Source: Armatimonadota bacterium
GTDB lineage: Bacteria > Armatimonadota > Fimbriimonadia > Fimbriimonadales > ATM1
NCBI GenBank assembly: GCA_003577165.1
Contig: QEUM01000009.1
Coordinates: 124,001 to 188,000 of the forward strand
Reading direction: 5' to 3'
Length of the DNA: 64,000 nucleotides
The notes under the pieces were generated by a model. It worked only from the letters and a program-made list of their open reading frames with translations, ran no database searches and was not told the DNA's origin. Made by a program: the position numbers and the translations under genes. Positions 12,656 to 16,360 of the stretch are shown here, piece by piece (the first letter of the stretch is position 1; every line of letters starts with the position of its first letter).

Positions 12656-14203
12656 TTACTTCGAGGGCAGAACTCTGTACACGGCGAACTCACCGCTCGA
12701 TTTCAGTTCGTACACCCTCATCCCGAGAGCCTCGAGCGCCTTTCGGCCGTCGGGTTCGAACCTTCCCCGCCGCGACAGGACGAGCGACTCCCGGTCTATG
12801 CGGGCAGCGAGTTCGTCGGGCCAGTCTGCGCTCGACATCCTGTCGGGAAGGTAGTAGCGGAGGCTCGGATAGCCGGTGGCTCCCCTCGCGCCCAGACCGC
12901 TCATCCGGTATTCCACCACAGGTAGGTTCGGCTCCCGGAGGAGCGACTTCGACACCTCGTTCAGGTCCTTGTAGGCTTCCCGGTGATAGGCGGGCATGCC
13001 GAGCAGCGCGGCAGTGAGGACGATTGGATACACCGAGGCCGCAGACTCCAAGAAGAGGATAGGGGTTCTCAGGGCGAAGAAGACCGAAGCGACGAGGCCG
13101 AACACTGCGCCGATTCCAAGCGGCATGAGCACCACCGTCGGCCCCTTCCCCATTCCGGCGGCGATGAAGCAGGCGGCAGCAACTAGGGCGGCGAAGATCG
13201 TCGGGACGAAGCGCTGAAGGGGGGGGCGAGTCGCAAGGGTGCGAGCGAGCAGAATCGCAAGGGGGGGGACGGCCGGAAGTATGTAGTGCGGAAGTTTGGT
13301 TCCCGCCGCCGAGAATAGAACAAACGCGGCGATTGCCCAGCACCAGAGGAACTTCCCGACTGCGTCCGTCCGAGTCGACTTCCAGGCCTGCAGAAGCGCG
13401 AGGGAGAACGGAGCCAGCGTCAGCAGAACGACGGGAATGTAATAGATGCCGGGTCCGAGATGAGCCTGGTCCTCGCCGAAGAACCGCCCCAGGTTCTGCT
13501 CGTACAGGAAGCCGCGAAGAAATGCGCTTCCCTGCTGGACGTAGATTGGCCAGTACCAGAGCGCGACGGTGACGGCGAAGCCGGCAATCGCCGCGAGCCA
13601 CACGGCTGCGCCGACGCTTCGCTCCGTGCGGAGTCGAAAGACGACGTACAGAGCGACGATCGCGAAGATGACCAACGCCGCCGGCCCTTTTGCGAGAACT
13701 GCCACACCGAGTGCGGGTCCGATCAACCACCGAGACAGGCCCGGGGGGTCGGAGACTGCCGACCAGAGCCCGAATAGTGAGACGGAGAGAGCGCACACGA
13801 ACGCCGTATCGGGCATGAACAGGCGCGAGACGCCGATGAGCAGAGGGCACGAGGCGAGGATCAGCACAGAGAAGAGAGCAGTGAGATCATCGAATCGCCG
13901 GCGCGCGAAGGAGATCGTCGCGCCGATGAGGCCCGCGTAGGCGAGAACGGAGAGCAATCGAAACGCGAGTTCGCCGGGAAGGCCGATCCTGAAAAATGCC
14001 TGCGCGCTCCAAAACATGAGAATCGGCTTCTCGAAGAAGGGCCTTCCGTCGAAAGTCGGGAGGAGCCAGTCTCCTCGTTCCGTCATTTCTCGGACGGCAG
14101 TCGCGTAGAGCCCTTCGTCGACGTCGAAGAAGCGAATGTGCCAGAAGCCCCAAAGGGGGATCAAGGCGAGCACCCACGCCATGACCCACACCTTCCGCGT
14201 CAC
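12656..14203 (-). CDS. ArnT/PMT-family membrane glycosyltransferase
   Basis: This 515-residue polytopic protein resembles the ArnT/dolichyl-phosphate-mannose mannosyltransferase group, which transfers a sugar from a polyprenyl-phosphate donor to lipid A, protein or glycan outside the cytoplasmic membrane. The first periplasmic loop carries FFDVDEGLYATAVREMTE, with the acidic pair expected for catalysis, followed by PTFDGRPFFEKPIL. About a dozen hydrophobic segments follow, then a soluble C-terminal domain of ~110 residues. The acceptor is unknown. The GTG start is preceded by TAATAT six bases upstream, suggesting a leaderless transcript. It is divergent from the PafA-type ligase with only 39 bases between them. 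Confidence 0.82.
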   Translation of the reverse strand: MTRKVWVMAWVLALIPLWGFWHIRFFDVDEGLYATAVREMTERGDWLLPTFDGRPFFEKPILMFWSAQAFFRIGLPGELAFRLLSVLAYAGLIGATISFARRRFDDLTALFSVLILASCPLLIGVSRLFMPDTAFVCALSVSLFGLWSAVSDPPGLSRWLIGPALGVAVLAKGPAALVIFAIVALYVVFRLRTERSVGAAVWLAAIAGFAVTVALWYWPIYVQQGSAFLRGFLYEQNLGRFFGEDQAHLGPGIYYIPVVLLTLAPFSLALLQAWKSTRTDAVGKFLWCWAIAAFVLFSAAGTKLPHYILPAVPPLAILLARTLATRPPLQRFVPTIFAALVAAACFIAAGMGKGPTVVLMPLGIGAVFGLVASVFFALRTPILFLESAASVYPIVLTAALLGMPAYHREAYKDLNEVSKSLLREPNLPVVEYRMSGLGARGATGYPSLRYYLPDRMSSADWPDELAARIDRESLVLSRRGRFEPDGRKALEALGMRVYELKSSGEFAVYRVLPSK

Positions 14204-14242: not shown

Positions 14243-15712
14243 GTGCCTGATGGCCTGAACCGGATCTTTGGAGTCGAGACGGAATTCGGATGCCTCGTCG
14301 ACCCGGCGTCTCATCTCCAATACGAGCAGGTCGTCGAGGCGGTCAAGGACCACGTTTTCCACACGCAGAGGCTCGGAGCGATCGACCTTCAGCCAAGGGA
14401 CGAGGCGTTCGAACCTGCGTTCAGCGGGGGCTTTCTCATCAACGGCGGGCGACTGTACGTCGACGCCGTGGGATCGCACGAGGAGTACGCAACGCCTGAG
14501 TGCCGAAGCGTATTCGATCTGATCGCTTCGGACCGCGCGGGCCAAAGGCTGATTCAGCGGGCACTCGAAGAAGTCGGACTCGCGGATATCGCGTGGTTCT
14601 ACAACAACAGCGTGGACCACTTCGGAGGACACACCTTCGGCTGCCACGAGAACTACCTGGTCAAGTCCATCGACGGTTTTCTGAACGACGCGGTGCAGCT
14701 TCTCTATCCGTTCCTTGTGACCCGACAGATATACGCAGGCGTCGGGCGCGTCGGTGGACACAGGATTCAGTATTCAGGCACACGCCTCACGGGGAACGAC
14801 CTCAGGAACGTCGTGGATTACATCTGGGTGAGCAACGTTTACGGCGTCGACCCGGACGAGTCAGTCACGTACCAACTCAGCCAGAGGGCCGACCACATCA
14901 TCAAGACCATCGCGAGTCGCGTCCGCTTCAACAGGGCGCTCATCAATCCGAAGTGGGAGTCGTTTTACAGTTACGGAGATACGACGCGCCTGCACCTATT
15001 ATTCGGCGAACCGAATCAGATGCAGTACGCGTACGCGTTGAAAGTCGGAACCACCTGCTTGATCTTGGACCTCGTCGAGCGGGGCATGATCCCGACGCAC
15101 TTGCGTTGCGCCGATCCGCTCGGAGACCTAAAGAACATCAGCCGGGACCCGACTTACAAGTGGATGATCACACTCGAAGACGGAACTACCCTCCGCGCGT
15201 GCGATCTGCATCGAGAGTACATCGCGCTCGCCGAGAGTTTCCGCGGGAGAGATGAGGAAACGGACTGGATTCTCGACGAGTGGAAGAACACCATCTCCGC
15301 TTTGGAATCGGACCCGATGCAGTTGTACGACAAACTCGATTGGGTCGCGAAGAAGCGAATCCTCGATGAGTACGTTGCAGACGCCGGAGTGGATTGGTCG
15401 GATGACTCGCTGCACTCGGTCGACCTCGAATATCACAACCTGAATCCGGAAAGGAGTCTCTACGACGCTTGGGAGGCCATGGGCAATGCGACGAAGGTCG
15501 TGCGAGAGACTCAGATTCTCGATGCCATGACCGATCCACCACCGAACACCCGGGCGTTCGCGCGAGCGCACCTCGTCCGGCGACTCATTTCGGAATTGCG
15601 GCCGACCTATTGGGTGGACTGGGACGCGGTGTATCTCAATCGGCAGACGGCGGTGGAACTGCCTGATCCGTTCGACAACTATGCGGACCTAATCGAGGGA
15701 ATCGGCAAGTAA
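14243..15712 (+). CDS. PafA-type ligase of the Pup/UBact protein-tagging family
   Basis: The 489-residue protein belongs to the PafA/Dop carboxylate-amine ligase family, related to glutamine synthetase. PafA activates the C-terminal Glu of a small protein (Pup, or UBact in some diderm phyla) with ATP and links it to a substrate lysine. Visible here are the metal-binding GVETEFG near residue 10, NGGRLYVD with the catalytic-base Asp at ~74, then VGSHEEYATPEC. Further on come HTFGCHENYL, PFLVTRQ, LKVGTTCLILDLVE and a C-terminal PYWVDW-like stretch (RPTYWVDWDAVYLN). The VGSH.EYATPEC form matches PafA rather than Dop (which has YYVDHAHPEYS), and the long Dop-specific loop is absent. No Pup or UBact gene, proteasome subunit or ARC/Mpa ATPase is adjacent. 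The GTG start has TAGAAT six bases upstream and a leaderless layout. Confidence 0.86.
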   Translation: MPDGLNRIFGVETEFGCLVDPASHLQYEQVVEAVKDHVFHTQRLGAIDLQPRDEAFEPAFSGGFLINGGRLYVDAVGSHEEYATPECRSVFDLIASDRAGQRLIQRALEEVGLADIAWFYNNSVDHFGGHTFGCHENYLVKSIDGFLNDAVQLLYPFLVTRQIYAGVGRVGGHRIQYSGTRLTGNDLRNVVDYIWVSNVYGVDPDESVTYQLSQRADHIIKTIASRVRFNRALINPKWESFYSYGDTTRLHLLFGEPNQMQYAYALKVGTTCLILDLVERGMIPTHLRCADPLGDLKNISRDPTYKWMITLEDGTTLRACDLHREYIALAESFRGRDEETDWILDEWKNTISALESDPMQLYDKLDWVAKKRILDEYVADAGVDWSDDSLHSVDLEYHNLNPERSLYDAWEAMGNATKVVRETQILDAMTDPPPNTRAFARAHLVRRLISELRPTYWVDWDAVYLNRQTAVELPDPFDNYADLIEGIGK

Positions 15713-15748: not shown

Positions 15749-16360
15749 ATGCTCACTACTCTCCTCACGTGCGCGGCGATCGGCGTCAGCGGGTCCTATT
15801 TCGAGGCTCGAAGCTGTTCGATCTTCGCCGGCCCTTGCCACTACAGCGGCGAGGTGATGACCGACGGCAGAACGGCCGTCATCGGCCTGAAGTTCGAGAT
15901 TGGCTCTTACAAGGGCGTATCTCTGTCGGGCCTCGAGGCGGCTGCCGTGGTTCAGTCGCCGGAGAACCTGTCGTTCGGGAAGGAGCGCGTCACGCACGCG
16001 TACGTCGACACCGACGCGACTCCACAGCAGAAGTCAGCGCTGCTGGAACTCCTCCGGAGCCGTTCCGACCTCGGAAAGGTCGTCTCCGTCACGGCTGCTG
16101 AGATCGATCTGCGAATCGGCCAGGCCGAGGGACACGCCGCAATTCGAACTCAAGCGGGCGTCGTGTACTCCGCGACGACCAGCAGCCGCGAGTGCCTGGC
16201 CTGCAACATGCCCGGGGTGCTCTGGTATTCGCCTCTGACGCAAGGCGCGAGCGTCAGCGTGGCGACCGTCGAGTCCCAGACGCTTACCCAGGGGGCGCTC
16301 GGTGAGACGTTCAGGCGGGACGACGAGTCGGCCGCCTTCGTGGGCACCTTCGCCTGGTAG
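15749..16360 (+). CDS. DUF1326-like protein of unknown function
   Basis: The 203-residue protein resembles the DUF1326 family. It has an N-terminal GSYFEARSCSIFAGPCHY motif, where the family has a Cys-rich EGxYLExCxCxxGCPC start, a central GSYKGVSLSGLEAA and the HAYVDTDATPQQKSALLELL segment. The family's function is not established. The first ~12 residues are mildly hydrophobic but too short for a confident signal peptide. Two pairs of cysteines (near the N-terminus and in the ECLACN stretch) could bind a metal or form disulfides. It follows the pafA-like gene by 36 bases. Confidence 0.7.
   Translation: MLTTLLTCAAIGVSGSYFEARSCSIFAGPCHYSGEVMTDGRTAVIGLKFEIGSYKGVSLSGLEAAAVVQSPENLSFGKERVTHAYVDTDATPQQKSALLELLRSRSDLGKVVSVTAAEIDLRIGQAEGHAAIRTQAGVVYSATTSSRECLACNMPGVLWYSPLTQGASVSVATVESQTLTQGALGETFRRDDESAAFVGTFAW

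Follow-up and report, generated by a model that had tools for sequence, protein, structure and literature searches.

The gene at positions 14243..15712 (+ strand, GTG start, 489 aa) of the window, by which we mean the whole 64,000-nucleotide stretch of Armatimonadota DNA that was analysed, is very probably the pafA of a complete UBact–proteasome system with its genes dispersed around the genome. By analogy with PafA enzymes, its product most likely attaches UBact to other proteins. The gene looks alone because the genes for the tag, Dop, the proteasome and the ATPase sit elsewhere in the genome. Its annotation as a pafA-type UBact-protein ligase draws on the match to PF03136, residue mapping and its clade in the tree; the observations behind the wider assignment are family membership, intact catalytic residues, the presence of every component in the same genome and their linkage as one cluster in relatives.

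In a Pfam search, Pup_ligase (PF03136) was the sole family matched by the window protein, which it covers at full length (E = 2.7e-121, 406 bits, model positions 1–440 of 441). Its sequence matches in the PDB are all Dop or Pup ligase, the best ones being Dop. With the NCBIfam equivalog models, which we take to have been built on actinobacterial proteins, it scores 293 bits for Dop (cut-off 492) and 284 bits for PafA (TIGR03686, cut-off 551), and the Dop of the same genome likewise falls below its own cut-off. As the two scores are about equal and both below cut-off, naming the window protein requires residue evidence. PafA and Dop are reported to differ in the Dop loop of ∼40 residues, which is absent from PafA, in the residues beside the catalytic Asp (LVGS in PafA versus VHA in Dop), in the α-loop, and in a C-terminal Ser of Dop that becomes Asp in PafA (PMC7947786). 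Aligned with PafAs and Dops, the window protein lacks the Dop loop, carries the VGS insertion beside its catalytic Asp (DAVGSH), has the PafA-type His at the start of the α-loop, and ends in a PafA-like C-terminus (VDW and DPF). Given these features, and given that the genome's second family member is a Dop, we assign the window gene as PafA and its paralogue as Dop. Of the PafA α-loop set (H, W, E, G, S, S, A, R, S), the window protein keeps the His and one Ser, while most others differ, and the remainder of this loop resembles neither PafA nor Dop. A predicted fold based on a four-sequence alignment (pLDDT 41, pTM 0.29) was too poor for use on the α-loop. Judged by its sequence, the window protein is a genuine PafA/Dop-family enzyme of the PafA type. 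A sequence-only reading of the same DNA had also favored PafA over Dop, citing signatures that included the catalytic Asp of LYVD. The type assignment stands, with LYVD and VGSHEEYATPEC both present, but the LYVD Asp is common to both enzymes (D94 in Acidothermus cellulolyticus Dop). PafA is told apart from Dop by its VGS insertion, its lack of a Dop loop and its C-terminus.

The metal ligands of A. cellulolyticus Dop are Glu8, Glu10, Tyr92, Glu99, His155 and His241, reported along with D94 (PMC8599861). Mapped onto this enzyme, the Mg ligands of the window protein are E12, E14, Y72, E81, H135 and H251, and its catalytic Asp, corresponding to D94, is D74. All seven residues are invariant in the alignment of Armatimonadota PafAs (43/43), confirming that the catalytic residues are kept in close relatives, a point on which the sequence-only reading had made its assignment depend.

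We searched the genome (2.75 Mb in 23 contigs, 97% complete) and found two members of the Pup_ligase family, the window gene on contig C7 and dop on contig C18. The C18 paralogue has the Dop loop (WDYALESPRCDLRGF) and DHGHPEY, and its best NCBIfam match is Dop (TIGR03688), with a score under the cut-off. Just 9 bp behind dop lies the gene for UBact, a protein of 62 aa (MAPVINAERRERDLPIPERKPGEDEGPSKRDVRKPQGDNELLRRMRKVDPDQAKKYRQRSGE) that ends in RQRSGE and exceeds the cut-offs of both NF033388 (NCBIfam) and PF20513 (Pfam). A second UBact match, at C7:118002 (E = 0.6), was too weak and was taken as chance. Genes for the proteasome β and α subunits are found at C18:190–191.6 kb, 48 kb from dop–UBact, and are typed by their best matches (α, TIGR03691; β, TIGR03690), though these are below cut-offs. 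An ARC/Mpa-like ATPase is encoded at C22:15.3–16.8 kb, its best model being pup_AAA (459 bits versus a cut-off of 505), and actinobacterial Pup (PF05639) had no match in the genome. All components of the system are present, in four places: pafA, dop–UBact, β–α and ARC. The genome-wide searches proposed earlier, for a short tag ending in Glu, Gln or Gly-Glu and for proteasome genes and a Dop homologue, located every item. The ligase had been described as lying alone, and its immediate neighbours indeed include no gene for Pup, UBact, the proteasome or the ATPase, but the description fails at the level of the genome. Similarly, the tag was supposed to be unlinked or unrecognised; it is unlinked, being encoded on another contig, but it is not unrecognised, since it scores above both model cut-offs and is clustered with pafA in close relatives.

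Within the window, no UBact-like motif was seen in short ORFs; a 33-residue ORF at 443–544 ends in GE, presumably by chance. The gene 36 bp downstream of pafA (15749..16360, + strand) encodes a 203-aa protein of the DUF1326 family (PF07040, E = 3.4e-10), as the sequence-only reading had suggested, and is possibly co-transcribed with pafA. It adjoins pafA in five genomes of family f1 (G003, G004, G006, G007 and that of the window) and is a case of local conserved synteny. The other border of pafA is formed by a divergent gene for a PMT-like glycosyltransferase (12656..14203, − strand; PF13231, E = 1.7e-16). Synteny shows this border to be conserved in family f1, to which the window belongs, and the PMT-like gene is outside the UBact system.

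In relatives from families f2 and f3 of the same order, dop, UBact, β, α and pafA are contiguous and in the same order (L069, L070, L072, L073). In other f2 members and in f4, pafA is separate, and in G003, of family f1, dop is still close behind pafA. The order ARC–dop–UBact–β–α–pafA recurs in most of 20 other Armatimonadota loci, a set selected because the two family members lie close together and hence not a measure of frequency. Based on the contiguous clusters of the relatives, the window gene is probably the terminal pafA of an ancestral cluster, from which it has moved away. Its isolation reflects the dispersal of these genes in one bacterial family and in the order to which that family belongs; linkage of pafA to the UBact cluster is usual, though not required for function. 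Pup_ligase is found in 30 of 31 related genomes and in 84/151 genomes phylum-wide; UBact scores above cut-off in 28/31 of the relatives. G011, a 96%-complete genome of the same order, is the sole relative with neither a Pup_ligase match nor UBact over the cut-off, and has apparently lost the system. At another locus (L159:6144–6812, in G064), the usual place of UBact between dop and the β gene holds an unrelated gene and no UBact ORF.

A mixture-model tree of 35 rows, the check earlier proposed for this protein, groups it with its family (support 98–100) within a clade formed by Armatimonadota PafAs (100/100). This clade joins actinobacterial PafA in the same tree, but weakly (69/35). In a FastTree/LG tree, actinobacterial PafA instead grouped with actinobacterial Dop. 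This is likely an artefact, as the grouping is lost in the mixture-model tree and is also opposed by three features that unite both PafA groups: the VGS insertion, the absence of a Dop loop and the VDW/DPF C-terminus. The placement of the window protein among the PafAs of UBact clusters is not in doubt.

Some features might be held against the reading of this protein as a UBact ligase, namely the NCBIfam scores under cut-off, the weak deep split in the tree and the altered NTRDEPH motif described below. One alternative is that the tag used by the ligase is not UBact but an unrecognised one with its gene elsewhere. The separation of pafA from UBact and the altered motif could both be read in this way, yet UBact is present in the genome and is the cluster partner of pafA in relatives, the altered motif is common to PafAs within UBact clusters, and neither a tag-like short ORF in the window nor a Pup in the genome was found. 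We regard such a tag as very unlikely. It is just as improbable that the protein is a Dop-type depupylase or some other non-ligase member of the family. The Dop model does score slightly above the PafA model, and the best PDB matches are Dop; against this, the protein is PafA-like at the positions set out in PMC7947786 (no Dop loop, the VGS insertion, the α-loop His, and VDW and DPF at the C-terminus), and the genome has a separate, true Dop. Glutamate-cysteine ligase and glutamine synthetase have in their favor only a superfamily shared with Pup ligase (PMC2588565). With PF03136 as the lone Pfam family and all PDB matches to Pup ligase or Dop, either identity is refuted, and we give it next to no weight. 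These comparisons leave the UBact-ligase reading, in which the window protein is an ordinary component of a system already known, and its tag is neither missing nor new. The gene is thereby removed as a candidate for an unknown tagging system. For other lone pafA genes, it follows that a new tag should be proposed only after the whole genome has been checked for UBact.

In established PafA/Dop-family chemistry, ATP phosphorylates the γ-carboxylate of the tag's C-terminal Glu, and lysine attack then yields an isopeptide. For the window enzyme, we infer that UBact is the substrate, that catalysis follows these steps and that tagged proteins go to the proteasome. By analogy with PafA and glutamine synthetase, it would phosphorylate the γ-carboxylate of the C-terminal Glu of UBact (...RQRSGE) with ATP, and the acyl group would pass to the ε-amine of a lysine in the target protein, to which UBact would then be joined by an isopeptide bond. 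Removal of the tag would fall to the Dop whose gene adjoins that of UBact, and tagged proteins would be unfolded by the ARC-like ATPase and fed to the α/β 20S proteasome. UBact ends in Glu already in this genome; several relatives have a UBact with a terminal Gln, which their Dop would have to deamidate beforehand.

One stretch of the active site sets the Armatimonadota ligases apart from Dop and actinobacterial PafA; the UBact ligases in this comparison are all from Armatimonadota. Residues 234–243 of the window protein, INPKWESFYS (codons at 14942..14971, + strand), are the variant of INTRDEPHAD in an alignment of 43 PafAs and 41 Dops. NP[KR].[DE] replaces NTRDEPH in all 43 Armatimonadota PafAs, whereas NTRDEPH is nearly unchanged in the 41 Dops and in actinobacterial PafAs. 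In Dop, Arg227 holds the catalytic phosphate via a short hydrogen bond (PMC8599861); its place is taken by Lys in 42/43 Armatimonadota PafAs, including the window protein (K237), and that of Dop His231 by Phe, Tyr, Val, Leu or Met. His231 stacks on the Dop loop in Dop, and actinobacterial PafAs retain the equivalents of both residues. A ligase with no Dop loop, and no need to retain phosphate, could tolerate these changes. We tentatively suggest, at somewhat less than even odds, that the remodelled site of the Armatimonadota UBact ligases (NTRDEPH to NPKW[DE], Arg227 to Lys, and His231 to an aromatic or aliphatic residue) may commit these enzymes to ligation and prevent removal of the tag by the phosphate-dependent route. 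The replacement is a mild novelty, and the change at the phosphate site across the lineage offers a small, testable point on how the ligase and deconjugase activities of PafA and Dop separated.

Divergent Pup_ligase genes were also seen at other Armatimonadota loci. In L186:850–9995 (G037:C18), two of them (E = 1e-75 and 3e-93) adjoin an ARC-like AAA ATPase gene (pup_AAA, 275 bits), and the locus also encodes a protein with a weak Prok-JAB match, a fragment weakly resembling ThiF/E1, and a further protein of 168 aa that looks E2-like by eye and has no family match. Conjugation genes of the pupylation type may be combined at this locus with ones of the ubiquitin type. In L185:5452–10124 (G105:C14), three tandem genes (477, 491 and 552 aa) lie apart from that genome's complete UBact cluster. 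Finally, a third Pup_ligase protein, which has diverged strongly (E = 1e-30), is encoded at L188:5308–6807 (G042:C2), next to a tandem pair of similar genes (248 and 261 aa).

The UBact conjugation system was reportedly described by Lehmann et al. in 2017. Our system resembles it (NF033388, PF20513) in its GE/GQ-ending tag, PafA and Dop paralogues, 20S proteasome, ARC-type ATPase and occurrence in a diderm phylum, and differs in that the genes of the window genome lie in four places rather than in one cluster. With actinobacterial PafA (PDB 4B0T, 4BJR), the window protein shares the fold family, the Mg ligands, the catalytic Asp, VGSH, the lack of a Dop loop and the C-terminal VDW...DPF; it is about 30% identical to the actinobacterial homologue that was identified. 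It differs in having NPKW[DE] for NTRDEPH, one residue more in the VGSH insertion and a mostly different α-loop, and the tag in its genome is UBact, unlike the Pup of the actinobacterial system. Dop (PDB 4B0R, 5LRT) is homologous to the window protein and has the same metal ligands and Asp; the window protein, however, has neither a Dop loop nor the residues that surround the catalytic Asp in Dop, and carries Lys and Phe as the equivalents of Arg227 and His231.
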